From: Lichenibacterium dinghuense
Lineage (GTDB): Bacteria > Pseudomonadota > Alphaproteobacteria > Rhizobiales > Beijerinckiaceae
NCBI RefSeq assembly: GCF_021730615.1
Contig: NZ_JAJLMN010000001.1
Location: 4,661,501-4,725,500, forward strand
Reading direction: 5' to 3'
Length of the DNA: 64,000 nucleotides
A program made the position numbers and the translations under genes. Below, piece after piece: positions 8,254 to 45,472 of this stretch. How positions within the stretch are numbered: position 1 is the stretch's first letter; the number at the start of each line of letters is the position of its first letter. The notes under the pieces were generated by a model. It saw only the letters and a list, made by a program, of their open reading frames with translations, was not told the origin of the DNA and did no database searches.

Positions 8254-8290
8254 GCACCTCGCGTCATCGATCGGGCCGGGGTAGCGCCGG

Positions 8291-8989
8291 TCAGGCGGCC
8301 TCGTCCAGCTCCTTCACGCCGCTGTTGCGGTCCGCGTAGGCGGCGCGGAACGCGGGCCGGGCGATGCAACGGCGCCAGAAGCGGTCGAGCTGCTCGAAGC
8401 GCTCGTCGAGCGGCGTCGCGTTCACCGGGAACTTCGAGAAGGCGATGGCGGTGCACAGCGTCATGTCGGCGAAGGTCGGCTCCGCGCCGCCGAGCAGCCA
8501 GTCGCGGCCGTCGGCGAGGTGCCGGTCCACCAGCGCCGAATGGGCGATGGCCTCCTTGCGGCAGTGCTCGCCCCAGGCCTTGTTGTCGGTCAGCTCCAGC
8601 TTGGGGCCGAGGCCCTGGTGCATGACGTGGAACATGGTGGTGATGCGGTACAGGATCTGAACCCAGATGCGGGCGTCCCACATCGTGTCGAGCCCCTGCT
8701 CCTCGGGCGAGGAACCCATGATCCTGCGGCCCGGGAAGGCGCCGTCGAGGTAGCGCGCGATGGCGGTGGTCTCGCTGAGGTGCGAGCCGTCGGGCATGCG
8801 CAGCGTCGGGGTCTCGCCCCAGGGGTTCATCTTGAGGTGCTTCCACCCGCGCTGCTCGCCGCCCGGTGCCATGTCGTAGACCACCTCCTCGATCTCGCCG
8901 GCGATGCCCTTCTCGTGGATCATCAGGCGCAGGCGCTGCGGGTTCGGGAAGGCGGAGGGGGAGGTGTAGAGCTTCAGCATCTCGGCCAT
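8291..8989 (-). CDS. Glutathione S-transferase family protein
   Basis: A 232-residue cytosolic GST. The N-terminal thioredoxin-like domain starts LKLYTSPSAFPNPQRLRLMI; it contains the NPWGETPTLRMPDG cis-Pro segment and the glutathione gamma-Glu-binding HLSETTAIARYLDG. An all-helical C-terminal domain follows, with ADGRDWLLGGAEPTFADMTL (N-capping box region). ATG 8989 (MAEMLKLYT) was chosen because the longer frame to 9334 adds a low-complexity extension overlapping the divergent sulfotransferase. The class resembles bacterial GSTs with Ser/Tyr-type active sites. The substrate is unknown. Confidence 0.9.
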   Translation of the reverse strand: MAEMLKLYTSPSAFPNPQRLRLMIHEKGIAGEIEEVVYDMAPGGEQRGWKHLKMNPWGETPTLRMPDGSHLSETTAIARYLDGAFPGRRIMGSSPEEQGLDTMWDARIWVQILYRITTMFHVMHQGLGPKLELTDNKAWGEHCRKEAIAHSALVDRHLADGRDWLLGGAEPTFADMTLCTAIAFSKFPVNATPLDERFEQLDRFWRRCIARPAFRAAYADRNSGVKELDEAA

Positions 8990-29794: not shown

Positions 29795-30012
29795 GAGGGC
29801 CGGCGTCCCGTCGGGCGCCGGACGGGAACCCGGGACGCGCTTCTCTCCCCACGTCGGGTGGGCGCGGAGGCCGGGACTGCCCCCGCAACTGTGAGCGGAG
29901 AGCCGGATCGTCACGAGGCCACTGGGGCGCGAAGCGCTCCGGGAAGGCGACGGTCCCGGCGATGAGGTCTTCCACGGACCTCGGCATCCGCGAGTCAGGA
30001 AACCTGCCGTGC
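29795..30012 (+). promoter_or_regulatory. Cobalamin riboswitch
   Basis: The leader of the DUF1636-cobW-cobN operon contains the ordered conserved blocks of the adenosylcobalamin riboswitch: GACGGGAACCCGG (29821-29833), GACTGCCCCCGCAACTGT (29875-29892) followed by GAGCGG, GAGGCCACTGGGGCG (29925-29939), GGGAAGGCGACGG (29941-29953) and the terminal GAGTCAGGAAACCTGCC (29992-30008). Cobalamin binding is expected to repress the operon downstream by sequestering the ribosome site or ending transcription. Edges are approximate. Confidence 0.93.
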
Positions 30013-31618: not shown

Positions 31619-34600
31619 ATGCACCTCCTCCCCCTCAGCGCCGGCACGCTCGACCCCGCCCCGGCGGCGGTCGACCTCGCCCAGACGCCGGCGGACGTCG
31701 TGGTGCTGTCCTTCTCGGACGGCGATCTCGCCGGCCTCGCCGCGGCTGTGGAGGGCGTCGACGGGCTGCCGAGCCTCAGGCTCGCGGCGCTGAAGGGGCT
31801 CGGGCATCCGTTCTCGGTCGACCTCTACGTCGACAAGGTCGCGGCGCGCGCCCGCCTCGTCATCGTGCGCGCCCTCGGCGGGCTCGACTATTGGCGCTAC
31901 GGGCTGGAGGAGCTCGGCGCCGCGGCGCGCCGGCACGGCTTCCACCTCGCCGCCGTGCCGGGTTGCGAGCAGCTCGATCCCCGGCTCGACGCGCTGTCGA
32001 CCCTGCCCGAGGCGGACCTGCGCCGCCTGTGGCTCTTCTTCCGCGAGGGCGGGCCGGCGAACCTCAGGGAAGCCATGCGCTTCGCGGCGTCGCGCATCGG
32101 GCAGCCCGCCGCGTGGCGCGAACCCGAGGCGCTGCCGGCGGGGACGGTGGTGCCCGAGCTGTGCCGGATGGGTGCGTCGAGTGCCACCGCTGCCCTTCTC
32201 CCCTGCGGGGAGAAGGTGTCTGCGCAGCGGACGGATGAGGGGTCGATGGATCGCCCCGAACCCCTCATCCGTCTCGGCTCCGCCGAGACACCTTCTCCCC
32301 CGAGGGGAGAAGGGCGCGCGCCCCACGCCCTTCTCACCTTCTACCGCTCCGCCCTGCTGGCCGGCGACGTCGCGCCCGTGGCGGCGCTGGCGGACGCGCT
32401 CCACGCCCGCGGCGCGCGCGTCACCGCCTTCGCGGCGTCGAGCCTCAAGGATGCGGAGGCCGCGGACGCGCTCGCCGCGCTGATCGCTGCCGACCCGCCC
32501 GACGTCGTGCTGAACACCACCGCCTTCTCGGCCCGCCGCGGGGAAGGCGCCACCGTGCTCGACCGGGCCGACGCGCCCGTGCTGCAGGTCGTGCAGGCGG
32601 CGAGCGGCCGCGAGGCCTGGGCGGCGAGCGACAGGGGCCTGCGCGCGGCCGACCTCGCCATGAACGTCGTCCTGCCCGAGGTCGACGGCCGTCTGCTCGC
32701 GGGCGCGATCTCCTTCAAAGAGCCCGGCCCGATCGACGCCGCGCGCGAGTTCTCGCCCGTGCTGCACCGGCCCGACCCCGAGCGCGTCGCCCACGCGGCC
32801 GACCTCGCGCTCGCCTGGGCGCGCCTGCGCCGCGCGCCCCGCGCCGGGCGGCGCCTCGCGCTCGTCCTCTCGGATTATCCCGGCAAGGCGGGCCGCGGCG
32901 GCTACGCGGTGGGGCTCGACGCGCCGGCGAGCCTCGCCGGCATCGCGGCCTCGCTCGCCCATGCGGGCTACGCTGTCGAGCCCGTCGCCGACAGCGCCGC
33001 CCTGATGGCCCGCCTCACGGCGGGCGAGCCCCTGCCGGTGCTGGGCCTCGACGCCTACGCGCGCGCCTTCGCCCAGCTGCCCGCGGGGTTCCGCGACGCC
33101 GTCCTGTCGCGCTGGGGCGACCCCGCCGACGATCCCGACGCGCGGGAGGGCGCCTTCGCGTTCCGCCACGCCCGCCTCGGCGCCATGGTCTGCGCCGTGC
33201 AGCCCGACCGCGGCACGGCCGCCGACCGTCGCGCCGACTATCACGACGCCGCGCTGCCGCCCCGCCACGGCTACGTCGCCTTCTACCTCTGGCTCCGCGA
33301 GGCCGAGCGGATCCACGCGCTGGTCCACCTCGGCACTCACGGCACGCTCGAATGGCTGCCCGGCAAGGCCGTGGCGCTGTCTTCCGCCTGCGCGCCCGAG
33401 GCCGTGCTCGGCCCCGTGCCGCTGATCTACCCCTTCATCGTGTCCGACCCCGGCGAGGCCGCGCAGGCCAAGCGACGCGTCGGCGCCGTCACGGTCGGGC
33501 ACCTCACCCCGCCGCTCGTCGCCGCGGGCACGCATGGCGCGACGGCCGAGCTCGAAGCGTTGTTCGACGAATACGCGGAGGCGCAGGGCCTCGACGCCCG
33601 CCGCGCCCGGCTGCTCGGGCAGGCCATCCTGGACCGCGCCCGCGATGCCGACCTGCTCGCCGACTGCGGCGTGCCGGAGGGCGCCGCGCCCGAGGACGCG
33701 CTGGCGCGGCTCGACGCGTGGCTCTGCGACGTCAAGGAAGCCCGCATCGGCGACGGCCTCCATGTCTTCGGCGCCGCGGCTTCCGGCCGGGGCGGGGCCT
33801 TCGACGCCTGCTCGGCGGCCGAGACCGCGGGCCTCCTCGCCGCGCTCGACGGGCGCTTCGTTCCGCCCGGCCCGTCCGGCTCGCCCGCCGCGGGCCGGGC
33901 CGACGTGCTGCCGACGGGGCGCAACCTGTTCGCCGTCGACCCCCGCGCCGTGCCGACCCGCACCGCCTGGGAGATCGGCACCCGCGCGGCGGCCGAGTTC
34001 GCCACCCGCTACGCGCAGGACCACGGCGACTGGCCGCGCCGCCTCGTCATGGACCTGTGGGGCAGCGCCACGATGCGGACCGGCGGCGACGACCTCGCGC
34101 AGGCGCTCGCGCTGATGGGCGTGCGGCCGCGCTGGCACGCGGGCTCGACCCGCGTCGACGGCTTCGAGGTGCTGCCCGCGGCGCGGCTGGAGCGGCCGCG
34201 CGTCGACGTCACGCTGCGCATCTCCGGCCTGTTCCGCGACACATTCCCCGAGCAGATCGCGCTCTTCGACGCCGCGGCCCGCGCGGTCGCGGCGCTCGAC
34301 GAGGACGGCGACTGGAATCCCCTCGCCGCCGCGCGCCGCGCCGGCGGGGGGCTCGACCGCGTCTTCGGCGGCGCGCCGGACGCCTACGGGCTCGGCCTCG
34401 CGCGCGCCGTCTCGGCCGGCGCCTACGCGTCCCGCGGCGAACTCGGGGAGCGCTACATCGCCGGCACGTCCCACGCCTACGCGGGCGCCGACGCCGCGGC
34501 GCGGCCGTCGCCGGGGTTCCGCGAGCGCGTGGCCGGCGCCGACAGCTACCTCCACGTCGCCGACCTGCCCGAGGTCGATGTGCTGTCCTCCGACACCTTC

Positions 34601-35050
34601 GCCGAGCACGAGGGCGGCTTCGCGGCCGCCGCGGCGTCGCTCGGCGCGCGCCCGGCGCTCTACCACGCCGACGCCACGGTGCCCGGCACCTTCAAGGTGC
34701 GGACCCTGTCCGAGGAGGTGGCGCGCGCCGTGCGGGCGCGAGCCACCAACCCGCGCTGGATCGCCGGCCAGATGCGCCACGGCCACCGCGGCGCCGCCGA
34801 GATCGCCGAGACCGTGGACGCGCTGTTCTGCTTCGCCGCGACGTCCGACGCCGCGCCGAGCCGCCACTTCGACCTCCTGTTCGACGCGACCCTCGGCGAC
34901 GACGCCGTGCGGGGCTTCATGGTCGAGGCCAACCCCGCCGCGGCGCGTGCCGTCGCGGAGCGGTTCGCCGAGGCGCAGGAGCGCGGCTACTGGCACGCGC
35001 GCCGCAACTCCACCGCCGCCCTGCTGGCCGAGCTGAGGGCCGCGGCGTGA
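31619..35050 (+). CDS. cobN: Cobaltochelatase subunit CobN, with in-frame palindromic insert
   Basis: Large subunit (1143 residues) of the ATP-dependent cobaltochelatase that inserts Co2+ into hydrogenobyrinate a,c-diamide, with CobS and CobT (not in the window). Recognisable segments include LVIVRALGGLDYWRYGLEEL, LVHLGTHGTLEWLPGKAVAL with metal-pocket histidines, DLWGSATMRTGGDDLAQAL and NPRWIAGQMRHGHRGAAEI. Residues about 192-233 (bases 32192-32315) are a palindromic repeat that stays open, between an N-terminal region ending LCRMGASSA and HALLTFYRSALLAGDVAPV. The insert brings the rest of the protein to about 1100 residues, somewhat short of 1275 in Pseudomonas denitrificans CobN. ATG 31619; overlaps cobG by 4 bp. 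Confidence 0.95.
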   Translation: MHLLPLSAGTLDPAPAAVDLAQTPADVVVLSFSDGDLAGLAAAVEGVDGLPSLRLAALKGLGHPFSVDLYVDKVAARARLVIVRALGGLDYWRYGLEELGAAARRHGFHLAAVPGCEQLDPRLDALSTLPEADLRRLWLFFREGGPANLREAMRFAASRIGQPAAWREPEALPAGTVVPELCRMGASSATAALLPCGEKVSAQRTDEGSMDRPEPLIRLGSAETPSPPRGEGRAPHALLTFYRSALLAGDVAPVAALADALHARGARVTAFAASSLKDAEAADALAALIAADPPDVVLNTTAFSARRGEGATVLDRADAPVLQVVQAASGREAWAASDRGLRAADLAMNVVLPEVDGRLLAGAISFKEPGPIDAAREFSPVLHRPDPERVAHAADLALAWARLRRAPRAGRRLALVLSDYPGKAGRGGYAVGLDAPASLAGIAASLAHAGYAVEPVADSAALMARLTAGEPLPVLGLDAYARAFAQLPAGFRDAVLSRWGDPADDPDAREGAFAFRHARLGAMVCAVQPDRGTAADRRADYHDAALPPRHGYVAFYLWLREAERIHALVHLGTHGTLEWLPGKAVALSSACAPEAVLGPVPLIYPFIVSDPGEAAQAKRRVGAVTVGHLTPPLVAAGTHGATAELEALFDEYAEAQGLDARRARLLGQAILDRARDADLLADCGVPEGAAPEDALARLDAWLCDVKEARIGDGLHVFGAAASGRGGAFDACSAAETAGLLAALDGRFVPPGPSGSPAAGRADVLPTGRNLFAVDPRAVPTRTAWEIGTRAAAEFATRYAQDHGDWPRRLVMDLWGSATMRTGGDDLAQALALMGVRPRWHAGSTRVDGFEVLPAARLERPRVDVTLRISGLFRDTFPEQIALFDAAARAVAALDEDGDWNPLAAARRAGGGLDRVFGGAPDAYGLGLARAVSAGAYASRGELGERYIAGTSHAYAGADAAARPSPGFRERVAGADSYLHVADLPEVDVLSSDTFAEHEGGFAAAAASLGARPALYHADATVPGTFKVRTLSEEVARAVRARATNPRWIAGQMRHGHRGAAEIAETVDALFCFAATSDAAPSRHFDLLFDATLGDDAVRGFMVEANPAAARAVAERFAEAQERGYWHARRNSTAALLAELRAAA
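32192..32315. repeat. Palindromic repeat element inside cobN
   Basis: About 124 bp with outer arms GCCCTTCTCCCC (32192-) and GGGGAGAAGGGC (ending 32315), two terminal hairpins (32195-32215 and 32291-32313), and an inner pair GGATGAGGGG/CCCCTCATCC (about 32233-32270). It belongs to the CTTCTCCC family also seen in cobE, cobB and after 52047. It is translated in frame within cobN. Confidence 0.85.
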
Positions 35051-36480
35051 CGGCCGCCGCCGCCCTCCGCGTCGGCTGGTGCCCCGGCGCCCTCCGCCCG
35101 ATGATGAGCCGCGACGGGCTGATCCTGCGCGTGAAGCCGCGCGGCATGGCGCTCCGAGCCGATCGCGCGAGCGGAATCGCCGCGGCGGCCCGGCGGCACG
35201 GCAGCGGGCAGCTCGAACTCACCGCGCGCGCCAACCTCCAGATCCGCGGCGTCACCGAGGCGAGCCTGCCGGCCCTGACGGTCGAGCTCGACGCCATGGG
35301 CCTGCTCGACGCCGACGCGGGCGCGGAAACGCGCCGCAACGTGGTCGCCAGCCCGCTGATGGGGCTCGACCCCGCGGCCGCCTTCGACGTGCGCCCGGCC
35401 GTGGCGGCGCTGGAGGCGGCGCTCGCCGGTGCGGCCGGGCTCGACGCGCTGCCCTCGAAGTTCGGCTTCGCCGTGGCGGACGGGGGCGCGATGCGGCTCG
35501 ACGACGTGCCGGCAGACGTGCGCTTCGACGCGCTGCCGGGCGGCCGCTTCGCGGTGCGGCTCGACGGCGACGGGATTGCGGCGGCCGGCTGCGGAGCGGA
35601 TGAACTCCCGGAGATGGCGCTGCGGCTGGCGCGGGCCTTCGTCGAGGCCGCGGCGGCGGATGCCGGGCTGCACCGCATGCGCGACCTCGTGGCGGCGGTG
35701 GGGGCCGGCGAGGTCCTCCGGCGTGCGACATCGGAGGCGATCTCCGACCGTGGGGAGCCTCTCCCCTCTCCCTTGTCGAGAGGGGCCGGGGGTGAGGGTG
35801 AAGCGACGGTTCCTGAAGGTGGAACGCGGGACCGCCCTCTCCACGGCACTCCCCTCGCACCCTCACCCCAGGGCCCCATCTCGGCTCGCCGAGATGGGTA
35901 TCCTCGTACCCCTCCCCACGGGGGAGAGGGGAGGCGGCCGGCGTCGCATGCGGTCTTCGACTGCGACGTCGCCCTCGGCGTCGCCGCGCCCTTCGGCCGG
36001 CTCGACGCCGCGCAGCTCGACGCGCTCGCCCGCGGCGCCGCCCGCGTCGGCGCGGGCGAGCTGCGGCTGACGCCCTGGCGCGCGCTCCTCGTGCCCGGCC
36101 TCGCGCCGGATGCCCGCGCCCGCCTCGCCGCCGACTGCGCCGCGGCCGGGCTCATCGTCGACCCCGCCGACCCGCGCCTGCGCGTCGCCGCCTGTGCGGG
36201 CGCGCCGGGCTGCCGCCGCGGCTCGACGCCAATCCTCGCCGATGCGGCCGCCCTCGCGCCGCTGCTCGGCCCCGGAGCCGGGGTCGCGCTGCACGTGTCC
36301 GGCTGCGCCAAGGGCTGCGCCCATCCCGGCCCTGCGCCCCTGACGCTCGTCGCCGCGGAGGGCCGCTACGCGCTCGTGGCCGACGGCACCGCCGCCGACG
36401 CCCCCGCCGCGACGGGGCTTGACCTCGCCGAGGCGCATCGCCTGCTGAAGACCATCCTCCGCCTGGATCGCCGCCCGTGA
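35047..36480 (+). CDS. cobG: Precorrin-3B synthase, with in-frame palindromic insert
   Basis: A 477-residue ferredoxin-nitrite/sulfite-reductase-like oxygenase that hydroxylates precorrin-3A to precorrin-3B in the aerobic pathway. The tandem half-domains show VKPRGMALRADRASGIAAAA with LTARANLQIRG, and in the second half VGAGELRLTPWRALLV. The 4Fe-4S/siroheme cysteines are ACAGAPGCRRGS and SGCAKGCAHPGP near the C-terminus. A different palindromic element (35758-35934) adds about residues 238-296 in the linker between the halves; without it length falls from 477 to about 418 (family about 460). GTG 35047 overlaps the cobN stop; the next overlap, with cobH, is GTGA. Confidence 0.93.
   Translation: MTAAAALRVGWCPGALRPMMSRDGLILRVKPRGMALRADRASGIAAAARRHGSGQLELTARANLQIRGVTEASLPALTVELDAMGLLDADAGAETRRNVVASPLMGLDPAAAFDVRPAVAALEAALAGAAGLDALPSKFGFAVADGGAMRLDDVPADVRFDALPGGRFAVRLDGDGIAAAGCGADELPEMALRLARAFVEAAAADAGLHRMRDLVAAVGAGEVLRRATSEAISDRGEPLPSPLSRGAGGEGEATVPEGGTRDRPLHGTPLAPSPQGPISARRDGYPRTPPHGGEGRRPASHAVFDCDVALGVAAPFGRLDAAQLDALARGAARVGAGELRLTPWRALLVPGLAPDARARLAADCAAAGLIVDPADPRLRVAACAGAPGCRRGSTPILADAAALAPLLGPGAGVALHVSGCAKGCAHPGPAPLTLVAAEGRYALVADGTAADAPAATGLDLAEAHRLLKTILRLDRRP
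35758..35934. repeat. Palindromic repeat element inside cobG
   Basis: About 177 bp with arms CCTCTCCCCTCTCCC (35758-) and GGGGGAGAGGGGAGG (ending about 35934) and the internal pair GGTGAGGGTG/CACCCTCACC. It is a related but distinct family to the CTTCTCCC elements, rich in CTCTCCC and GGTGAGGG. It is translated without a stop, in the linker between the two CobG half-domains. Confidence 0.8.
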
Positions 36481-37103
36481 CCTACGACTACATCCGCGAC
36501 GGCGCCGCCATCTACGCCAAGAGCTTCGCCATCGTCCGCGGCGAGGCGGACCTCCGCGCCTTCGACCCGGTCGAGGAGCCCGTCGCGGTGCGGATCGTCC
36601 ACGCCTGCGGGATGGTCGAGGCCGCGGCCGACATCCGCTTCACCCCCGGCGCCGTGGCGGCCGCGAAGGCGGCGCTGCGTGCCGGCGCGCCCGTGCTCTG
36701 CGACGTCCGCATGGTGGCAGACGGCGTCACGCGCCGCCGCCTGCCGGCCGGCAACGACGTGGTCTGCACGCTGAACGACCCGCGCGTGCCCGCGATGGCG
36801 GCCGAGCTCGGCACCACCCGCACGGCCGCGGCCGTGGAGCTGTGGCGCGACCGGCTCGCCGGCGCGGTCGTCGCCATCGGCAACGCCCCGACGGCGCTGT
36901 TCCACCTCCTGGAGATGATCGCGCGCGGCGCGCCGATGCCGGCCGCGGTGATCGGCATGCCGGTCGGCTTCGTCGGCGCGATGGAGTCCAAGGAGGCGCT
37001 GCTCGACTTCGGCCGCGTGCCGGCGCTCGTCGTGCGCGGCCGCAAGGGCGGCAGCGCCATGACGGCCGCGGCCGTCAACGCGCTGGCGAGCGACGAGGAA
37101 TGA
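36477..37103 (+). CDS. cobH: Precorrin-8X methylmutase
   Basis: A 208-residue enzyme that moves the C11 methyl to C12 to form hydrogenobyrinic acid. It has the expected YDYIRDGAAIYAKSFAIVR start, catalytic His in RIVHACGMVEAAADIRF, and the GAPVLCDVRMVADGVTRRRL and AIGNAPTALFHLLEMI segments. It starts at GTG 36477, overlapping the cobG stop by 4 bp, and its stop overlaps cobI (ATGA at 37100-37103). Length is normal for the family. Confidence 0.96.
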   Translation: MTYDYIRDGAAIYAKSFAIVRGEADLRAFDPVEEPVAVRIVHACGMVEAAADIRFTPGAVAAAKAALRAGAPVLCDVRMVADGVTRRRLPAGNDVVCTLNDPRVPAMAAELGTTRTAAAVELWRDRLAGAVVAIGNAPTALFHLLEMIARGAPMPAAVIGMPVGFVGAMESKEALLDFGRVPALVVRGRKGGSAMTAAAVNALASDEE

Positions 37104-37828
37104 GCGGCGGCACCCTCACCGGCGTCGGCCTCGGCCCCGGCGACCCGGAGCTCGTCACCGTCAAGGCCGTGCGGGCCCTGGAGGCTGCGCCGGTCGTCAG
37201 CTACTTCGCCAAGCGCGGGCGCCGCGGCAACGCGCGCGCCATCGCGGACGGCTGGCTGCCGGCCGGCGTCGAGGAGCTGCCGCTGCACTACCCCGTGACG
37301 GTGGAGATCCCCTTCGATCACCCGGACTACGTCGCGGCCCTGTCCGGCTTCTACGCCGAGGCGGCGGAGCTGCTGGCCGCGCATCTCGCGGCCGGGCGCG
37401 ACGTGGCGCTGCTGTGCGAGGGCGATCCGCTGTTCTACGGCTCGTTCATGCACCTCTACGTGCGGCTGCGCGGGCGCCATCCCTGCCGCATCGTGCCGGG
37501 CGTCACCGGCATGTCGGGCTGCTGGACGGCGGCCGGCGAGCCCATGACCTGGGGCGACGACGTGCTCACGGTCGTGCCGGGCACGCTGCCTCCGGGGCCG
37601 CTCGCGGCGCGCCTCGCGAGCGCCGACGCCGCGGTCGTGATGAAGCTCGGCCGCAACCTGCCCAAGGTGCGCGCGGCGCTGGCCGAGGCGGGGCTGCTGG
37701 AGCGCGCCGTCTACGTCGAGCGCGGCACCATGGCGGCCGAGGTCGTGATGCCGCTGGTCGACAAGCGCGACGACGCGGCGCCGTATTTCTCGATCGTGCT
37801 GGTGCCCGGGCGGGGGCGACGGCCGTGA
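37100..37828 (+). CDS. cobI: Precorrin-2 C20-methyltransferase
   Basis: A 242-residue SAM-dependent tetrapyrrole methyltransferase. Class signatures are GVGLGPGDPELVTVKAVRAL, the SAM-binding ALLCEGDPLFYGSFMHLYVR and the RIVPGVTGMSGCWTAAGEPM region; the latter with LPLHYPVTVEIPFDHPDY marks the C20 enzyme (CobI/CbiL). It acts on CobA's product precorrin-2 to give precorrin-3A. ATG 37100 overlaps the cobH stop; the cobJ GTG overlaps its own stop. Confidence 0.95.
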   Translation: MSGGTLTGVGLGPGDPELVTVKAVRALEAAPVVSYFAKRGRRGNARAIADGWLPAGVEELPLHYPVTVEIPFDHPDYVAALSGFYAEAAELLAAHLAAGRDVALLCEGDPLFYGSFMHLYVRLRGRHPCRIVPGVTGMSGCWTAAGEPMTWGDDVLTVVPGTLPPGPLAARLASADAAVVMKLGRNLPKVRAALAEAGLLERAVYVERGTMAAEVVMPLVDKRDDAAPYFSIVLVPGRGRRP

Positions 37829-38586
37829 GCGGCGGTTCCCTCGCGGTCGTGGGCCTCGGGCCGGGCCCGGCCGACTGGCTGCTGCCCGAGGCCGAGGTCG
37901 CCCTCGCCAGCGCGACCGACCTCGTCGGCTACGTTCCCTACGTGGCGCGGGTGCCGGAGCGGCCGGGCCTCGCCCGCCACGCCACCGACAACCGCGTCGA
38001 GGCGACCCGCGCCCGCCACGCCTTCGCGCTGGCGCTGGAGGGGCGGCGCGTCGCGGTCGTGTCGGGCGGCGATCCCGGCGTCTTCGCCATGGCGGCGGCC
38101 GTGGTCGAGGCGCTCGACGCCGAGCCGGCCTTCCGCGCCGTGCCGCTGCGCGTCGTGCCCGGCCTCAGCGCCATGATGGCGGCGGCGGCCCGGCTCGGCG
38201 CCCCGCTCGGCCACGACTTCTGCGCCGTGTCGCTGTCCGACAACCTGAAGCCCTGGAGCGTCGTGCTGCGCCGCCTCACCGCCGCGGCGGAGGGCGACTT
38301 CGTGCTGGCGCTCTACAACCCCGCCTCCAAGGCCCGGCCGACGCAGATCGGCGACGCCTTCGCGCACCTGCGGGGGCTGAAGGCGGGCGCGACGCCGGTG
38401 GCCTTCGCCCGCGCGGTCGGCCGGCCGGACGAGCGCCTCCACCTCACGACCCTCGCCGAAGCCGATCCCGCGCTCGTCGACATGGCCACGCTGGTGCTCG
38501 TCGGGTCGAGCGAGACGCGCTGGGTCGAGGGGCAGGGCGGGCGGCGCTGGATGCTGTCGCCCCGGACCTACGGCAAGGGACTATGA
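37825..38586 (+). CDS. cobJ: Precorrin-3B C17-methyltransferase
   Basis: A 253-residue SAM methyltransferase that also carries out ring contraction to precorrin-4. It shows VVGLGPGPADWLLPEAEVAL, DLVGYVPYV, the CobJ-diagnostic VVSGGDPGVFAMAAAVVEAL and HDFCAVSLSDNLKPW, then ALYNPASKARPTQIGDAF. GTG 37825 overlaps the cobI stop by 4 bp. It is the last gene of the first forward run; a palindromic repeat follows at 38602-38714. Confidence 0.95.
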   Translation: MSGGSLAVVGLGPGPADWLLPEAEVALASATDLVGYVPYVARVPERPGLARHATDNRVEATRARHAFALALEGRRVAVVSGGDPGVFAMAAAVVEALDAEPAFRAVPLRVVPGLSAMMAAAARLGAPLGHDFCAVSLSDNLKPWSVVLRRLTAAAEGDFVLALYNPASKARPTQIGDAFAHLRGLKAGATPVAFARAVGRPDERLHLTTLAEADPALVDMATLVLVGSSETRWVEGQGGRRWMLSPRTYGKGL

Positions 38587-38601
38587 TGGCCTCCTCCATC
38601 C

Positions 38602-38714
38602 TTATGCTGAGCCGGCCGCGGCGCGGCCGTGTCGAAGCACGCAGGCGCCTTCCGCGCAGGAGTGGCGAGGTGCCGCGTGCTTCGACACGGGGCCTTCGGC
38701 CCCGGCTCAGCATG
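38602..38714. repeat. Intergenic palindromic repeat, third family
   Basis: About 113 bp between convergent cobJ and cobK. Outer arms ATGCTGAGCCG and CGGCTCAGCAT enclose CCGTGTCGAAGCACGC and GCGTGCTTCGACACGG, so the whole element can fold on itself. It shares no sequence with the CTTCTCCC elements. It may also act as a bidirectional terminator here. Confidence 0.8.
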
Positions 38715-38732
38715 AGGGAAGGCAGGAGAGGC

Positions 38733-39482
38733 TCAGCCTCCACTCCGATGTACAGCGATCCAGTGGAGCACCGCGTCGAGCGTCTCCGCCTCGTCCCGCT
38801 CGCCCGCGATCCGCGGCCGGTCGACCGCGATCACGCGCAGGCCCAGCGCCCGCGCCGCGTCGAGCTTGGCGGCTGCGGCCGCGCCGCCGCTGTTCTTCGT
38901 CACCACGGCCTCGACGCCCTCGCGGCGCATCAGCGCGATCTCGCCGTCGAGCGCGAAGGGCCCGCGGTCGAACACCAGCGCGTGGTCGGGCGGCAGCTCG
39001 GCCGGGTCGGGCGGGTCGATGGTGCGGATCACGTAGCGGTGCTGCGGCGCCGCGCGGAAGTGCGCGAGGCCGAGCCGGCCCACCGTGAGCAGCGCGCTCG
39101 TCCGCGCCGGGCCCAGCGCCGCCGCGGCCGCGTCGAGGTCGGCCACCGCCGTCCAGCGGTCGCCGGGCCGCGGGCGCCAGGACGGACGCGTGAAGGCGAG
39201 GAGCGGCACGCCCGCGGCCGCGGAGGCCAGAACGGCGTGGGCCGAGATGCGGGCCGCGAAGGGATGCGTGGCGTCCACCACCGCGTCGACGCGTTCCCGC
39301 CTCAGATGGTCGGCGAGGCCCTCGGCGCCGCCGAAGCCGCCGATGCGGTGCGGGATCGGGGGCAGGGCGGGGTTCCGCGTGCGCCCGGCCAGCGACAGAA
39401 CGGGCGCGACGCCGTCCCGCCCGGCGAGCGCGCGGGCCAGCGCCGAGGCTTCGGTGGTGCCGCCGAGGATCAGGAGACGCAT
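38733..39482 (-). CDS. cobK: Precorrin-6A reductase
   Basis: A 249-residue NADPH-dependent reductase giving precorrin-6B. Key motifs are LLILGGTTEASALARAL at the N-terminus, VVDATHPFAARISAHAVLA, and TKNSGGAAAAAKLDAARALG near the end. The ATG (39480-39482) overlaps the ATG of divergent cobL (39481-39483), so the two start codons share two bases. It is convergent with cobJ. Longer in-frame extension into cobL was rejected because it is antisense. Confidence 0.94.
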   Translation of the reverse strand: MRLLILGGTTEASALARALAGRDGVAPVLSLAGRTRNPALPPIPHRIGGFGGAEGLADHLRRERVDAVVDATHPFAARISAHAVLASAAAGVPLLAFTRPSWRPRPGDRWTAVADLDAAAAALGPARTSALLTVGRLGLAHFRAAPQHRYVIRTIDPPDPAELPPDHALVFDRGPFALDGEIALMRREGVEAVVTKNSGGAAAAAKLDAARALGLRVIAVDRPRIAGERDEAETLDAVLHWIAVHRSGG

Positions 39483-40695
39483 GGGGGGGCGGGTGTCTGA
39501 GCCCTGGCTGACGCTGGTCGGCATCGGCGAGGACGGGCGGGCGAGCCTATCCCCTGCCGCGCTCAGCGCGCTGGCGCAAGCCGCGCTCGTCGTCGGCGGG
39601 CGCCGCCACCTCGCCCTCGCGGCCCCGCTCGCGGCCGAGACGCTGCCCTGGTCGTCGCCGATGGAGGACACCTACCCGGCCATCCTCGCGCGCCGCGGCA
39701 CGCCCGTGGCCGTGCTGGCGAGCGGCGACCCCTATCACTACGGCGTCGGCGCCACGCTGGCGCGGCTCGTGGCGGAGGACGAGATGCGCTGCTTCCCGCA
39801 GCCCTCCGCCTTCGCGCTGGCGACGGCGCGGCTCGGCTGGGCCTTCCAGGACTGCGCGGCCCTGTCGCTCTGCGGCCGGCCGATCGAGACGCTCGTGCCG
39901 GCGCTGCAGCCGGGAGCCCGCGTGCTGGCGCTGTCGGCCGACGCCGCGACGCCGGGGGCCGTCGCGGCGCTGCTCGGCCGCCGCGGCATCGGCGCCTCGC
40001 GGATCATCGTGCTGGAAGCGATGGGCGGCCCGCGCGAGCGCATCCGCGCCGCGCGGGCGGACGGCTTCGACATCGCCGACATCGACGCGCTGAACACGCT
40101 GGCGATCGAGGTCGCGGGGCAGGGGGACGCGCTGTCGCTCCTGCCGGGCCGGCCCGACGCGCTGTTCGAGCACGACGGCCAGATCACCAAGGCCGACGTG
40201 CGCGCCGCCACCCTGGCGCGCCTCGCGCCGCGGCGGGGCGAACTGCTCTGGGACGTCGGCGCGGGCTCGGGCTCGGTGGCGGTGGAGTGGATGCTGGCCC
40301 ATCCGGCGAACCGCGCCGTCGCGGTCGAGCGGCATCCCGAGCGCGCGGTCCGCATCCGGCGCAACGCCGCGGCGCTGGGCGTGCCGGGCCTGGCCGTGGC
40401 GGAGGGCGCGGCGCCGGCGGCCCTGGCCGGCCTGCCAGCGCCCGACGCGGTCTTCGTCGGCGGAGGAGCTACGGGCGCGGGCGTGCTCGACGCCTGCGCG
40501 GCGGCGCTCGGGCCGGGCGGGCGGCTCGTCGTCAACGCCGTGACGATCGAGACGCAGGCGGCGTTGATCGAGCGATTCCGGAGCGTCGGCGGCGCGCTGA
40601 CGACGCTCGGCACGGCGCAGGCCGATCCGGTCGGCGGCTTCCACGGCTGGCGCCCGGCCATGCCGGTGACGATCTGGTCCTGGGTGAAGCCGTGA
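39481..40695 (+). CDS. cobL: Precorrin-6Y C5,15-methyltransferase (decarboxylating)
   Basis: A 404-residue bifunctional enzyme. The N-terminal CbiE-like SAM methyltransferase has LTLVGIGEDGRASLSPAALS and AVLASGDPYHYGVGATLA. The C-terminal CbiT-like domain has ITKADVRAATLARLAPRRG, the SAM motif LLWDVGAGSGSVAVEWML and DAVFVGGGATGAGVLDAC. It methylates C5 and C15 and decarboxylates the C12 acetate. ATG 39481 is used; GTG 39493 (VSEPWLTLVGIG) is an equally good start and has a G-rich run upstream. cobE overlaps its stop by 4 bp. Confidence 0.94.
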   Translation: MGGRVSEPWLTLVGIGEDGRASLSPAALSALAQAALVVGGRRHLALAAPLAAETLPWSSPMEDTYPAILARRGTPVAVLASGDPYHYGVGATLARLVAEDEMRCFPQPSAFALATARLGWAFQDCAALSLCGRPIETLVPALQPGARVLALSADAATPGAVAALLGRRGIGASRIIVLEAMGGPRERIRAARADGFDIADIDALNTLAIEVAGQGDALSLLPGRPDALFEHDGQITKADVRAATLARLAPRRGELLWDVGAGSGSVAVEWMLAHPANRAVAVERHPERAVRIRRNAAALGVPGLAVAEGAAPAALAGLPAPDAVFVGGGATGAGVLDACAAALGPGGRLVVNAVTIETQAALIERFRSVGGALTTLGTAQADPVGGFHGWRPAMPVTIWSWVKP

Positions 40696-41315
40696 GCGGG
40701 GACATTCGCGAGGCCGACAAGTTCGCCCCTTCTCCCCTCGCGGGAGAAGGTGCCCTGACGAAGTCAGGGCGGATGAGGGGGCATGGCGCTGCGCTCGATG
40801 ATGGACCGATCCTGGCGGAGAGCGCGGAGGCGGCCCCCTCATCCGACCCGGCTTTGCCGGGCCACCTTCTCCCGCGAGGGGAGAAGGAGGTGCGCCCCTT
40901 GGGATGCGCCCGGTCTCCGCGCCTCGCCGTCGGGCTGGGCTTCCGCAAGGCTGCGACGGCCGACACTCTGACGGACCTCGCCCGCGACGCCCTGTCCCGC
41001 CTGCCTTCCGACCTCGCCGCCCTGCCGGCCGTCATCGCCACGATCGCCGAGAAGGACCGGCCGCCGCTGCGCGAAGCCGCCTCGCGGCTCGGCCTGCCGG
41101 TGGTGATCCTGCCGAAATCCGCCCTCGCCGGCACGGAGGACCGCATCACGGTCGAGTCCGAACCCGCCCGCGCCTGCCTGGGCATCCCGTCCGTGGCCGA
41201 GGCCGCGGCGCTGGCGGCGGCGGGGCCGGGGGCGCGTCTCGTCGTGGCCCGCATCGCCGCGGCCGACGCCACCTGCGCGGTCGCGCTCTGGGAACCATCG
41301 CCGGAGGCGACATGA
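40692..41315 (+). CDS. cobE: CobE (CbiG C-terminal-type) cobalamin biosynthesis protein, with N-terminal palindromic insert
   Basis: A 207-residue product of which the conserved part begins around [20 protein letters not shown] and continues [40 protein letters not shown] and [20 protein letters not shown], matching the CobE/CbiG C-terminal domain, a small protein of uncertain role in cobalamin synthesis. Residues about 12-66 come from a palindromic repeat. The GTG start 40692 overlaps the cobL stop. Alternative starts after the element, GTG 40890 or TTG 40899, would give a product of about 139-141 residues near normal CobE length, and AAGGAGG (40884-40890) at the repeat end forms a good ribosome site for TTG 40899. 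Which is used is undecided. Confidence 0.85.
40727..40887. repeat. Palindromic repeat element at the start of cobE
   Basis: About 161 bp with arms CCCTTCTCCCCTCGCGGGAGAAGG and its reverse form, a CCCTGACGAAGTCAGGG hairpin (40753-40769), and GGATGAGGGGG/CCCCCTCATCC inside, then a CCCGGCTTTGCCGGG hairpin. It is closely similar in plan and phase to the element in cobB. Left-arm translation begins APSPLAGEG in both. Confidence 0.88.
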
Positions 41316-42076
41316 CGGTCCACTTCATCGGCGCCGGCCCCGGCGCGCCCGACCTCATCACCCTGCGCGGCCGCGACCTCCTCGCGCGCTGCCCGGTCTG
41401 CCTTTACGCCGGCTCCATCGTGCCGCGCGCGCTGCTCGACCATTGCCCGCCCGGCGCCCGCACCGTCGACACGGCCCCGCTCGACCTCGACGCCATCGCG
41501 GCCGAGTTCGCCGCTGCCCACGCGGCGGGACAGGACGTGGCGCGGCTCCATTCCGGCGACCTGTCGGTGTGGAGCGCCATGGGCGAGCAGATCCGCCGCC
41601 TGCGCGCGCTCGGCATCCCGTACACGGTCACGCCCGGCGTGCCCTCCTTCGCGGCCGCCGCGGCGGCGCTCGGCGCCGAACTGACCCTGCCCGAGGTCGC
41701 CCAGAGCGTCGTGCTCACCCGCACCTCGGGGCGCGCCTCCGCGATACCGGACGGGGAAAGGCTGGCGAGCTTCGCCGCCACCGGCGCCACGCTGGCGATC
41801 CACCTGTCGATCCACGCGCTCGACCGCGTCGTCGCCGAACTCCTGCCCGGGCACGGCGCCGACATGCCGGTCGCCGTCGTGGTGCGCGCCTCCTGGCCCG
41901 AGGAGCGGATCGTGCGCGGCACGCTCGGCACGATCGCGGCCCTGATGGCGGCCGAGCCGGCCGAGCGCACGGCGCTGATCCTGGTCGGCCGGGCGCTCGA
42001 TGCCGGGGGATTCCGCGACAGCGCCCTCTACGACGCGGACTACCGCCGCCGCTTCCGCGGGGGCGTCGGGCCTTGA
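41312..42076 (+). CDS. cobM: Precorrin-4 C11-methyltransferase
   Basis: A 254-residue SAM methyltransferase converting precorrin-4 to precorrin-5. Signatures are [20 protein letters not shown], the CobM-typical [38 protein letters not shown] and [23 protein letters not shown] 41312 overlaps the cobE stop (ATGA at 41312-41315). It is the last gene of this forward run; cbiD converges on it with 14 bp between them. Confidence 0.96.
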
Positions 42077-42090
42077 GGGCGCGGGTCGCC

Positions 42091-43164
42091 CTATCCGGCG
42101 CGTGCCACCAGCCGCCCGGTCCGGTCGAACAGCGCGACGTCGAGGCCCCGCTCTCGCCCGAGGCAGGCTGCCGCCGTGCGCCGCGCGCCCTCGGCCACCG
42201 CGCCGCCGAGGTCGACCCCCGCCGCCTCGGCCAGCGCGAAGGCCTCGGCGGCGGTGTTGGACGCGAGCACGCCGCGGGTCAGCGCCCCGTCGCCGCCCGC
42301 CGCGCGGGCCTTCTCGGCCAGGAAGGCGCGGTCGACCTCGCCGCGCTTCGAGTGGAGGTCGAGCAGGCCCTGCGCGAGCTTGGTCATCTTGGCGACGCCG
42401 CCCGCCACGGTGACGCGCTCGACCGGGTTCCGGCGCAGGTACTTCAGCATGCCGCCGACGAAGTCGCCCATGTCGATCAGCGCCGGCTCGTCGAGCCCGT
42501 GCAGCGCCCGCACCGCGACCTCGGAGGCGTGGCCGGTGGCGCCCGCCACGTGGCCGAGCCCGAGCGCGCGGGCGACGTCGATGCCGCGGTGGATCGTGTC
42601 GATCCAGGCCGCGCAGGAATAAGGCACGACGATCCCGGTCGTGCCGAGGATCGACAGCCCGCCGACGATGCCGAGGCGCCCGTTCAGCGTGCGCTCGGCG
42701 AGGCGCGCGCCGCCCGGCACGGCGATCTCGACCTCGGCATCCGCCGCCACGCCGAGCATCTCCGCCGCTTCGGCGATCGTGGCCCGGATCATGCTGCGCG
42801 GCACGGGGTTGATGGCCGGCTCGCCGGGCGGGATCGGCAGGCCGGGGCGCGTCACCGTGCCGACGCCCTCGCCGGCGCGGAAGCCGACGCCGCTGCCGGC
42901 CGGTGCGGGCCGCACCGTCACGACCACGAGGGCCCCATGCGTCACGTCGGGATCGTCGCCCGCGTCCTTCACCACGCCGGCGCGGGCGAAGCCGTCCCCG
43001 CGCTCGCCGAGGGCCAGCGCGAAGGCGGGGCGCGCGCCGCCCGGCAGGGCGATCTCGACCGGGTCGGGGAAATCCGCGCCGTGCAGGGCCGCGAAGGCGG
43101 CCCGCGCGGCCGCGGTCGCGCAGGCGCCGGTGGTCCAGCCACGGCGGAGGGTGACGTCCTTCAT
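42091..43164 (-). CDS. cbiD: CbiD-type cobalt-precorrin-5B C1-methyltransferase
   Basis: A 357-residue protein with the CbiD start LRRGWTTGACATAAARAAFAAL, AGVVKDAGDDPDVTHGALVV, GVGTVTRPGLPIPPGEPAIN and GTTGIVVPYSCAAWIDTI. It methylates C1, the step done by CobF in the P. denitrificans aerobic pathway; no cobF is seen here, so CbiD may replace it, as reported in other proteobacteria. ATG 43164 (MKDVTLRRGW) was preferred over ATG 43200. It is divergent from cobA (47 bp between starts). Confidence 0.94.
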   Translation of the reverse strand: MKDVTLRRGWTTGACATAAARAAFAALHGADFPDPVEIALPGGARPAFALALGERGDGFARAGVVKDAGDDPDVTHGALVVVTVRPAPAGSGVGFRAGEGVGTVTRPGLPIPPGEPAINPVPRSMIRATIAEAAEMLGVAADAEVEIAVPGGARLAERTLNGRLGIVGGLSILGTTGIVVPYSCAAWIDTIHRGIDVARALGLGHVAGATGHASEVAVRALHGLDEPALIDMGDFVGGMLKYLRRNPVERVTVAGGVAKMTKLAQGLLDLHSKRGEVDRAFLAEKARAAGGDGALTRGVLASNTAAEAFALAEAAGVDLGGAVAEGARRTAAACLGRERGLDVALFDRTGRLVARAG

Positions 43165-43211
43165 CGACTGACCATGTATGGTGCCGCCCCGCCGACTCAA
43201 AGGACAGACGA

Positions 43212-44024
43212 TTGCCGGCCCTGACCGATCCCCTCGCCGCGCTCGACGCCGCGGGTGCCCTGCCGAGGTTCGACGCTGGCACCGTGTGGCTCTGCGGCGC
43301 CGGCCCGGGCGACCCCGGCCTGCTCACGCTCCACGCCCTCCACGCGCTGCGCTCGGCCGACGTGATCGTCTACGACGCCCTGGTGTCGGACGGCATCATG
43401 GGCTTCGCGGGGCCCGACGCCGCGCGCGAGTTCGCCGGCAAGCGCGGCGGCAAGCTGTCGCCGAAGCAGGGCGACATCACGGACCGGCTGATCGAGCTCG
43501 CGCGCGAGGGCCGGCGCGTGCTGCGCCTCAAGGGCGGCGACCCCTTCGTGTTCGGCCGCGGCGGCGAGGAGGCGCTCGACCTCACCCGTGCCGGCGTGCC
43601 GTTCCGCATCATCCCCGGCGTCACGGCGGGCATCGGCGGCCTCGCCTACGCGGGCATCCCGGCCACGACGCGCGACACCAACACCGGCGTGATCCTGATG
43701 ACGGGCCACCTCGCCAAGGCGGACGCGCCGCGCGACTGGACCGCGGTGGCCCGCACGGGCCTGCCGGTGATCCTCTACATGGGCATGACGCATCTCGCCG
43801 ACATCGCGGCCGGGCTGATGGCCGGCGGGCTGCCGCCCGACACGCCCGTCGGCATCGTCAGCGACGCCACGACGCCGCGCCAGCGCGTGCTGGAGACCAC
43901 GCTGGCCGCGGCCCGCGCCGACGCCGACGCGGGAGGCTTCAAGTCGCCCGCCATCGTGGCCGTCGGCTCCATCGTGGCGCTGCGCCGGCACCTCGCCGCG
44001 GGCATGACGGGGCTGCCCGCGTGA
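43212..44024 (+). CDS. cobA: Uroporphyrinogen-III C-methyltransferase
   Basis: A 270-residue SAM enzyme methylating C2 and C7 of uroporphyrinogen III to give precorrin-2, the entry step to cobalamin and sirohaem. It has VWLCGAGPGDPGLLTLHAL, DVIVYDALVS, VLRLKGGDPFVFGRGGEEAL, IPGVTAGIGGLAYAGIPATT and the closing PAIVAVGSIVALR. The length matches the single-domain CobA rather than the CysG fusion. The start is TTG 43212 with AAGGA about 8 bases upstream; no nearer ATG/GTG fits. Its stop overlaps the cobB GTG. Confidence 0.96.
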   Translation: MPALTDPLAALDAAGALPRFDAGTVWLCGAGPGDPGLLTLHALHALRSADVIVYDALVSDGIMGFAGPDAAREFAGKRGGKLSPKQGDITDRLIELAREGRRVLRLKGGDPFVFGRGGEEALDLTRAGVPFRIIPGVTAGIGGLAYAGIPATTRDTNTGVILMTGHLAKADAPRDWTAVARTGLPVILYMGMTHLADIAAGLMAGGLPPDTPVGIVSDATTPRQRVLETTLAAARADADAGGFKSPAIVAVGSIVALRRHLAAGMTGLPA

Positions 44025-45472
44025 GCGCGCCGGGGATCATGATCGCCGCGACCCGCTCGGGGTCGGGCAAGACGGTGCTGACGCTCGGGCTGATGCGGGC
44101 GCTCGGGCGGCGCGGGCTGCGCGTGGCGGGGCGCAAGAACGGCCCCGACTACATCGACCCCGCCTTCCACGCCGCCGTCACGGGCCGCCCGAGCTACAAC
44201 CTCGATTCGTGGTCCATGCCGGCGCCGCTGCTGCTCCGCCTCGCCGGGGCCGGGGACGCCGACATCGTCGTCTGCGAGGGCTCGATGGGCCTCTTCGACG
44301 GCGTGCCGGCCGGGGACGGGCAGGGCGGCTCCTCGGCCGACGTCGCGGCGCTGACCGGCTGGCCCGTGGTGATGGTGCACGACTGTTCCGGCCAGTCCCA
44401 GTCGGCCGCGGCCATCCTGACCGGCTGCCGCGACTACGACCCGCGCATCCGCGTCGCGGGCGTGATCCTCAACCGCGTCGCCAGCGAGCGGCACCGCCGC
44501 CTCGTGTCGGACGCGATGGCGCGCGTCGGGGTGCCGGTGCTGGGCTCCGTGCCGCGCACCGACCGGCTGGCTCTGCCCGAGCGGCACCTCGGCCTCGTGC
44601 AGGCGGGCGAGACCGGGGACCTCGCGGTGCGCGTGGACGCGGCGGCGGACGTCGTCGAGGAGCACGTCGATTTGGACGCGCTGCTCGACGTGGCGGGCGC
44701 GAGCCCTTCTCCCCTCGCGGGAGAAGGTGGCCGGGCGAAGCCCGGTCGGATGAGGGGGGCGAGCGCCGCGGTCGACGATAGACCCCTCGACGCGGGTAGG
44801 ACAGCGCCAAGCCCCCTCATCCGTCAGGCTCCGCCTGACACCTTCTCCCGCGAGGCGAGAAGGGACGTCGCACCCCTGCTCCCGCCCGGCCAGCGGATCG
44901 CCGTGGCGCGGGACGACGCCTTTTCGTTCCTCTACCCCCACGTGGTCGAGGGCTGGCGCGCGGCCGGCGCCGAACTCACGTTCTTCTCGCCGCTCGCCGA
45001 CGAACCGACGCCGCCCGACTGCGACAGCGGCTGGCTGCCCGGCGGCTACCCGGAACTCCACGCCGGGCGCATCGCGGCGGCGTCGCGCTTCCTCCGCGGT
45101 CTGCGCGCCTTCGCCCGCACCCGCCCGGTCCACGGCGAGTGCGGCGGCTACATGGTGCTGGGCTCCGGCCTCGTCGACGCGGAGGGCGTGCGCCACGCCA
45201 TGGCGGGGCTGCTCGGGCTCGAAACGAGCTACGCGAAGCGGAAGCTCCACCTCGGTTATCGCGACGCCGTCACGCTCGCGCCCTCGGCGCTCGGCCCCGC
45301 GGGCACGCGCCTGCGCGGCCACGAGTTCCACTACGCCTCGATCCTCGACCTCGGCGGCGATGCCGCGCTCGCGGAGGCCGCCGACGCCTACGGCTCCGCG
45401 CCGGCCCCCACGGGGACTTGTCGCGGAAATGTCACGGGGACCTTCTTCCACGCCCTCGCGTCGCATGCATGA
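44021..45472 (+). CDS. cobB: Hydrogenobyrinate/cobyrinate a,c-diamide synthase, with in-frame palindromic insert
   Basis: A 483-residue ATP-dependent amidase. The N-terminal dethiobiotin-synthetase-like P-loop reads ATRSGSGKTVLTLGLMRAL, with GRKNGPDYIDPAFHAAVTG and CEGSMGLFDG. The C-terminal glutamine amidotransferase has SGWLPGGYPELHAGRI, the nucleophile in VHGECGGYMVLG and His in GHEFHYAS. A palindromic element (44703-44864) encodes residues about 228-282, lying in the linker between these domains; without it the protein would be about 429 residues, close to the 434 of P. denitrificans CobB. GTG 44021 overlaps the cobA stop. Confidence 0.95.
   Translation: MSAPGIMIAATRSGSGKTVLTLGLMRALGRRGLRVAGRKNGPDYIDPAFHAAVTGRPSYNLDSWSMPAPLLLRLAGAGDADIVVCEGSMGLFDGVPAGDGQGGSSADVAALTGWPVVMVHDCSGQSQSAAAILTGCRDYDPRIRVAGVILNRVASERHRRLVSDAMARVGVPVLGSVPRTDRLALPERHLGLVQAGETGDLAVRVDAAADVVEEHVDLDALLDVAGASPSPLAGEGGRAKPGRMRGASAAVDDRPLDAGRTAPSPLIRQAPPDTFSREARRDVAPLLPPGQRIAVARDDAFSFLYPHVVEGWRAAGAELTFFSPLADEPTPPDCDSGWLPGGYPELHAGRIAAASRFLRGLRAFARTRPVHGECGGYMVLGSGLVDAEGVRHAMAGLLGLETSYAKRKLHLGYRDAVTLAPSALGPAGTRLRGHEFHYASILDLGGDAALAEAADAYGSAPAPTGTCRGNVTGTFFHALASHA
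44703..44864. repeat. Palindromic repeat element inside cobB
   Basis: About 162 bp: left arm GCCCTTCTCCCCTCGCGGGA (44703-), CCGGGCGAAGCCCGG hairpin (44731-44745), inner GGATGAGGGGGGC/GCCCCCTCATCC, then a TCAGGCTCCGCCTGA hairpin and right arm CTTCTCCCGCGAGGCGAGAAGG ending at 44864. It is similar in length and phase to the cobE element. The right arm has one extra base change (GCGAG for GGGAG). Confidence 0.88.

Follow-up and report, generated by a model that had tools for sequence, protein, structure and literature searches.

The window examined here is a stretch of 64,000 nucleotides from the 6.1-Mb genome of Lichenibacterium dinghuense (contig NZ_JAJLMN010000001.1, positions 4,661,501 to 4,725,500), with a guanine-plus-cytosine content of 73%, and it contains a single cobalamin (cob) gene cluster in which palindromic repeat elements lie within the reading frames of cobN, cobG, cobE and cobB. 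The cluster comprises cobN, cobG, cobH, cobI, cobJ, cobK, cobL, cobE, cobM, cbiD, cobA and cobB, and a cobalamin riboswitch (29824-30004, + strand; Rfam RF00174, 61 bits against a cut-off of 31.5) lies upstream of the cob operon. The four genes of interest are all on the + strand. The cobaltochelatase subunit gene cobN (31619-35050, 1143 residues; NCBIfam NF008973, 1510 bits against a cut-off of 1235) is followed by cobG for precorrin-3B synthase (35047-36480, 477 residues; TIGR02435, 323.4 bits against 234.8). Further downstream are cobE (40692-41315), whose GTG overlaps the cobL stop and whose product has a CbiG C-terminal domain (Pfam CbiG_C, residues 78-198), and cobB for the a,c-diamide synthase (44021-45472, 483 residues; NF002204, 485.8 bits against 254, read from 44054). 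The closest named relative, judged by CobL (78% identity), is Lichenibacterium ramalinae.

A sequence-only reading of this DNA had reported a hairpin-rich, in-frame element in each of the four genes, and palindrome counts, folds and open frames confirmed all four near the coordinates first noted. They had been taken as one set; they are indeed real repeats, but they are not of one type, the elements in cobN, cobE and cobB forming one family (family A) and the cobG element a second (family B). In cobN, element 1 occupies 32192-32315, with inverted arms at 32192-32243 and 32260-32315, and corresponds to CobN residues 192-233. The cobB element (44703-44865) covers residues 228-282 approximately, counted from 44021, and lies between the CbiA/AAA_26 and GATase_3 matches, and the palindromic element of cobG (35758-35935, start approximate) covers CobG residues 238-297, again approximately. 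Exact copies of the outer palindrome of family A number five in the window, against a mean of 0.00 in 100 shuffles. The predicted hairpins of the four elements reach -101 to -132 kcal/mol, with RNA-folding z scores against dinucleotide shuffles of -12.0 (cobN), -8.4 (cobB), -11.9 (cobE) and -5.4 (cobG). The reading frames pass through all four elements without a stop; the frame used is an open frame of the element in 4/4 cases and, in cobB and cobE, the only open one of the three forward frames. Among the six frames of 37 copies, 52% are open. Coding signal flanks the element on both sides in cobN, cobB and cobG, and the claim of coding insertions at linkers holds for these three genes.

For cobE, the claim is ambiguous. 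The element (40726-40889) lies 5' of the conserved part of the gene, ahead of the domain that begins at residue 78, and could be an N-terminal extension or a leader. It ends in GGAGAAGGAGGT, and a full Shine-Dalgarno sequence (AAGGAGGT, 40884-40891) stands 7 nt 5' of an in-frame TTG at 40899 (together 40884-40901, + strand), a candidate for the true cobE start. Since the protein read from this TTG (40899-41312) matches CbiG_C along its whole length, the element may be a leader that provides the ribosome-binding site and not protein. The length first argued for CobB (about 429 residues without the element, against 434) also needed correction: the protein has 483 residues from the GTG at 44021, against 434-455 in the 39 relatives that pass a filter of 380-520 residues. 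In the CobN structure 9uk9, the best match by sequence in the PDB, the part facing residues 161-231 is unaligned. The corresponding search with CobB gave one match, a repeat protein, and no significant domain. A hit of Rfam RF03891 (mir-2545) on the cobN element (32199-32308, - strand) reached 44 bits, below the cut-off of 94, and was taken as a palindrome match; this microRNA family may itself rest on a similar palindrome.

A family-A element is built from a pair of inverted arms, about 55 nt long. Each arm combines a fixed outer palindrome with an inner hairpin whose sequence is hypervariable yet remains complementary. An arm reads, in order, outer palindrome CCTTCTCCC-loop-GGGAGAAGG, TG, inner hairpin and CGGATGAGGGG, after which come the spacer and the inverse arm. 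In 23 arms (19 from L. dinghuense and four from L. ramalinae), the inner hairpin varies in sequence and 98.1% of its cells pair; its covariation is 0.255, against 0.056 (standard deviation 0.011) when shuffled and at most 0.057 when slid. An inner hairpin could be read in 69 arms and in 28 pairs, on which further counts were made. These 69 arms contain 52 distinct inner hairpins, and at least six contiguous inner pairs occur in 43 of them (62%), against 3.7% when the halves are swapped between arms. None of the 28 elements having both arms readable carries the same inner hairpin in both. This pattern suggests that every arm is maintained as a separate hairpin and that a long perfect palindrome is avoided. 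Family B is represented in the genome by the cobG element, two other copies and one fragment.

Family A is abundant in the genome. The outer palindrome has 78 exact matches, against 0 in a reversed control, and a covariance model (R1) gave at least 124 matches, a lower bound because only 150 of 14958 candidates were scored. Of these matches, 107 resolve into at least 67 family-A elements, 40 of them complete pairs; most of the 17 left out overlap a counted arm, and those at 560199, 763345 and 2376200 are separate weak sites. Coding context was judged by a flank test, with a codon model trained on this genome, that is passed when both flanks are coding, share one frame and contain no stop. Three of the 40 complete pairs passed, namely those in cobN and cobB and a copy at 3591193. 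On reading frames, the last precedes the start of prmC and was rejected as an in-gene copy; one single arm first counted as in frame was likewise rejected, as it precedes a gene that we take to be rarA. Family A is thus mostly intergenic, and its clearly internal complete copies are 2 of 40, both in the cob cluster. A gene for a PIG-L family deacetylase contains half an element in frame, beyond the region matched by Pfam (L112, about 3001-3056; genome position 661300).

That insertions gathered in one pathway are unusual, as had been proposed, is borne out for this genome. An even sample comprised the window and 39 of 40 stretches, L286, which lies at a family-B site, being left out. In the 39 evenly spaced 20-kb stretches (780 kb), 16 strong inverted repeats were found, and 0 of the 16 are in frame by the flank test. 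Two CobG copies known to be coding were misclassified by the test (L315 as possible, L317 as not in frame), so the counts may miss coding copies, including in the L. dinghuense genome. Beyond this genome, exact outer palindromes number 0-34 in five members of the genus, and at least one is present in 38 of 79 relatives. Genome G039, of the same family, contains 131, against the 78 of L. dinghuense.

Filled and empty sites can be compared among close relatives. At the cobN place, a family-A element is also present in the L. ramalinae operon C30, with arm 1 in another frame than in L. dinghuense, and is absent from the L. ramalinae operon C13 and from G001 (CobN 86% identical to that of L. dinghuense), G003, G004 and G005. 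Contig 30 of G002 is identical to the L. ramalinae locus L016, and G002 is therefore an L. ramalinae strain. This strain has two cob operons (L232 on contig 13 and L233 on contig 30), with a CobN palindrome only on contig 30. The cobB and cobG elements of L. dinghuense are absent from G001 and from both L. ramalinae operons. The CobB linker has 55 residues in L. dinghuense, 44 in C13, 27 in G001 and 7-15 in the remaining 52 rows. Alignment with relatives thus upholds the proposed insertions, with shorter, element-free linkers in most close relatives; the exception is C13, in which CobG and CobB contain other inserts, of 63 and 44 residues, without an inverted repeat. Locus L016 further contains three consecutive family-A-like inverted pairs between cobI and cobJ, at about 7984-8452.

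The larger finding is that the same linkers carry palindromes of different families in other Hyphomicrobiales. Both flanks share one frame in all 51 CobN, 72 CobG and 55 CobB rows, and no linker contains a stop. The objection that the elements might be out of frame through sequencing error is contradicted by these intact frames and by the presence of the pattern in independent assemblies. The 51 CobN rows include one duplicate and represent 50 operons in 49 genomes, and in 13 of the 50 operons the first CobN linker carries an in-frame palindromic insert. Scoring of inverted repeats was limited to linkers at least 12 residues longer (19 CobN, 23 CobG and 7 CobB rows, duplicates included); the CobN-linker inserts scored 51-158, against at most 49 for codon shuffles (eight each). 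Five sequence clusters are represented among these inserts: family A (L. dinghuense, L. ramalinae and G016), a Microvirga element, a Mesorhizobium element, a CCCTCCCC-type element and a G022 element. Near residue 505, CobN has a second site, at which three clusters occur across six genomes; at the CobG linker there are six clusters, that of L. dinghuense included (represented by its best 24-base hairpin only). Within the window, a third kind of palindrome (38600-38717) lies between the convergent cobJ and cobK; it is non-coding by the flank test and looks by eye like the Microvirga CobN-linker element.

Across 96 loci (1.78 Mb), 57 strong palindromes were counted: 18 in CobN and 11 in CobG (5.6 and 3.0, respectively, expected from length), four in other cob genes and 24 outside. 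Two of the four are listed under CobM, yet lie past its end, and CobH, CobI, CobJ, CobK, CobL and CobW contain none. In this count, the CobG element of L047 was scored as outside, and the cobG element of L. dinghuense fell below the score limit; of the duplicates L233 (= L016) and L235 (= L017), the former was dropped and the latter kept. Related genomes entered the P values of the count as if they were independent, and these values are too small because shared ancestry is ignored; the cluster counts are unaffected by this. Three separate strong palindromes were observed in the CobN of G016 alone (L244, 1336-1442, 1785-1914 and 2686-2795).

The Mesorhizobium element was followed in three genomes through 37 copies, in which both arms match the 25-base pattern GGGGGAGATGTCCGGCAGGACAGAG exactly. 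Seven of the 37 complete copies lie in cobN or cobG. For the other 30, the flank test gave five in frame, three possible and 22 not in frame; three of the in-frame calls (L290, L308 and L313) were discounted for lying close to an N-terminus, and the possible calls L292, L303 and L311 for lying close to an N-terminus or in a very short frame. The clearly internal copies outside cob are thus 2 of 30, in an ABC-transporter ATPase gene in two genomes. These palindromes (L289, 2004-2161; L312, 4335-4492) lie, by eye, after the Walker A region, with a gene scan for L289 only. At orthologous cob sites, the spacer occurs in two orientations. In CobG, L060 and L068 have the spacer in the opposite orientation to L049, L090 and L093 (identity 0.54-0.67 when flipped, 0.25-0.51 when direct); in CobN, it is L093 whose spacer is inverted with respect to L049, L090 and L094 (0.54-0.61 flipped, 0.31-0.49 direct, weakest with L094). 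Either in-place inversion or replacement of the element would account for this.

Altogether, these results are best accommodated, with a probability of about 0.68, by host palindromic repeats that are tolerated in Cob linkers, where they lie in frame and would be translated and nearly neutral. Non-autonomous repeats resembling REP or miniature inverted-repeat transposable elements (MITEs) would have multiplied across the genome, for the most part in intergenic positions. Copies landing in the poorly conserved linkers of CobN, CobG and CobB would persist, the frame being kept and a flexible peptide added, and would be translated within working enzymes at little cost to the protein. Survival within genes would be expected only where 40-60 extra residues are harmless, such as between the CobB domains, in the middle of CobG and in the CobN stretch unaligned in 9uk9. 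Tolerance of inserts would also explain why other families recur in other Hyphomicrobiales, the same linkers being used repeatedly because they accept inserts. This reading builds on the family, copy number, in-frame position, element-free sites and recurrence as observed; it presumes translation and neutrality, linkers that are probably exposed and disordered, and repeats that move by some means.

Several results weigh against this reading. Tolerance alone leaves the rarity of internal copies elsewhere unexplained, the cob share of such copies being 2/2 in L. dinghuense and 7/9 for the Mesorhizobium element, and the cause of the cob bias is unproven. At orthologous cob sites picked by their well-kept arms (L094, with an interrupted CobG right arm, excluded), arms are 77-100% identical, against 61-86% for the flanking coding DNA, which plain neutrality would not predict without conversion between copies. 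Within one element, the two inner hairpins resemble each other less than randomly paired ones do (0.504 against 0.616, P 0.003; 14 equal-length pairs), which hints at a constraint at the DNA level, and two of the five measures of the covariation analysis were not above shuffles (114 and 120 of 500). A family-B copy at genome position 3537250-3537388 has weakly coding flanks on both sides, in one frame and without a stop, and could be a further coding copy. In addition, a target-site duplication of at least 6 bp was found in 0 of 37 family-A pairs (mean 1.27, against 1.16 at random, standard deviation 0.24), the 37 being those of the 40 that remained after three longer than 300 were excluded. 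PF01797 (Y1_Tnp) has 0 matches in the L. dinghuense genome, whereas 5 of 14 control genomes match, and a RAYT transposase as mobiliser was not found by that search. Mobility would therefore have proceeded without a known agent. No firm motif emerged from the family-A flanks, where base preferences were weak (the seventh base is C in 74%).

Three other explanations were weighed against tolerance. It is conceivable, if unlikely, that RNA hairpins act in the long cob message, by affecting its stability or segmental decay or by slowing ribosomes between domains, and that the peptide is a by-product. Such a role would agree with the highly stable predicted hairpins and their z scores (-5.4 to -12.0), the compensatory changes in the inner hairpin, the greater likeness of arms than of flanks (at sites picked by well-kept arms), the riboswitch upstream of the operon and the recurrence of different palindromes in the same genes. 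However, the covariation is drawn from genomic copies that are mostly intergenic, and therefore lends no support to a role inside cob; six cob genes are free of strong palindromes in the same 96 loci, and the first CobN site is without a palindrome in 37 of 50 operons (linkers less than 12 residues longer being unscored). Quite unlikely, too, is a preference for the CobN and CobG sites as targets, by which insertion machinery or conversion between copies would recognise the local DNA. An identical position has been struck in several lineages, the CobN elements of L. dinghuense and L. ramalinae stand at one place with arm 1 in different frames, and one site holds the spacer in both orientations. 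The same sites are nevertheless common to different element families, family A (the only family so analysed) shows no duplication and weak flank preferences, and copies outside cob are far more numerous.

That the inserts represent decay or sequence error in broken genes is highly improbable. In its favour, the extra in-frame sequence derives from repeats, and a supply of cobalamin can make cob genes dispensable. Yet the flanks keep a common frame in every CobN, CobG and CobB row without a stop in any linker, coding signal stands on either side of the elements in cobN, cobB and cobG, the protein family scores exceed their cut-offs, and the pattern is repeated in independent assemblies. The CobN match of one relative (G059) contains an internal TGA. 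A bolder proposal, which we hold to be doubtful, is that the Cob proteins of Hyphomicrobiales possess docking sites for palindromic cassettes, with long inverted arms maintained in likeness by conversion with genomic copies, spacers that can be inverted or replaced in frame, and a recurrence in CobN and CobG that is selected. If so, a conserved biosynthetic enzyme would repeatedly gain a new peptide linker, with selection acting via the message or the protein.

Palindromic elements of Rickettsia were reportedly described by Ogata et al. in 2000 and 2002. They are palindromic, of about 105-150 bp and of several families, and occur both between genes and in frame in conserved protein genes (PMC2229807, PMC10969869), with nearly half of the copies inside genes (PMC10969869). 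The likeness that the sequence-only reading had drawn to them holds for anatomy and in-frame behaviour, as far as these descriptions go: here, too, palindromes lie in frame inside conserved genes (cobN, cobG and cobB). Unlike the share described there, in-gene copies amount to 2/40 for family A and 9/37 for the Mesorhizobium element; moreover, the hosts are high-GC Hyphomicrobiales, and clear in-gene copies are found for the most part at a handful of linkers within a single pathway, where several families meet. The elements are accordingly regarded as analogous in behaviour, and membership is not claimed because the likeness is one of description, not of sequence, and most copies are intergenic. 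Protein-coding palindromic repeats are likewise indicated, by title, for Wolbachia, also an alphaproteobacterium (PMC2229807), a likeness by description only. The enterobacterial MITEs ERIC/RU-1 and YPAL/RU-2 are described in the same source as non-autonomous repeats whose open frames are joined in frame to those of genes; target duplications are listed for each of them, and TA ends for ERIC (PMC2229807). Family A is without duplication. Of the features by which MITEs are recognised, family A has inverted terminal repeats, short length and many copies, and lacks the target-site duplication.

REP elements are small palindromes with many intergenic copies and a RAYT transposase; the family-A elements differ from them in lacking a PF01797 match in their own genome and in having longer arms with two hairpins. 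Palindromic repeats of Rhizobium genomes are known as RIME, and the present elements resemble them, by description only, as palindromic repeats in rhizobial genomes. The CIR elements of Caulobacter were reportedly described by Chen and Shapiro in 2003. Elements of this kind, found in Caulobacter and other alphaproteobacteria, are about 110 bp long, abundant, strictly intergenic and tied to GANTC sites (PMC2229807), whereas the family-A arm consensus (23 arms; arms only, not spacers) contains no GANTC. A literature search found no report of palindromes in cob genes; it did not extend to subscription literature and is no proof of absence.

In-frame repeats are hereby placed outside Rickettsia, Wolbachia and enterobacteria, at defined linkers of one pathway. 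The element-free sites of sister genomes, and the filled and unfilled operons of one L. ramalinae strain, make it possible to test, by ordinary enzyme and growth assays, whether selfish repeats are built into functioning proteins and what this costs. They also give annotators grounds to anticipate residues of repeat origin in Cob proteins.

A viral collection searched for relatives of CobB yielded none. Within the cluster itself, cbiD, for cobalt-precorrin-5B methyltransferase, lies at 42094-43200 on the - strand, together with cobG and cobN, gene names that belong to the aerobic pathway.

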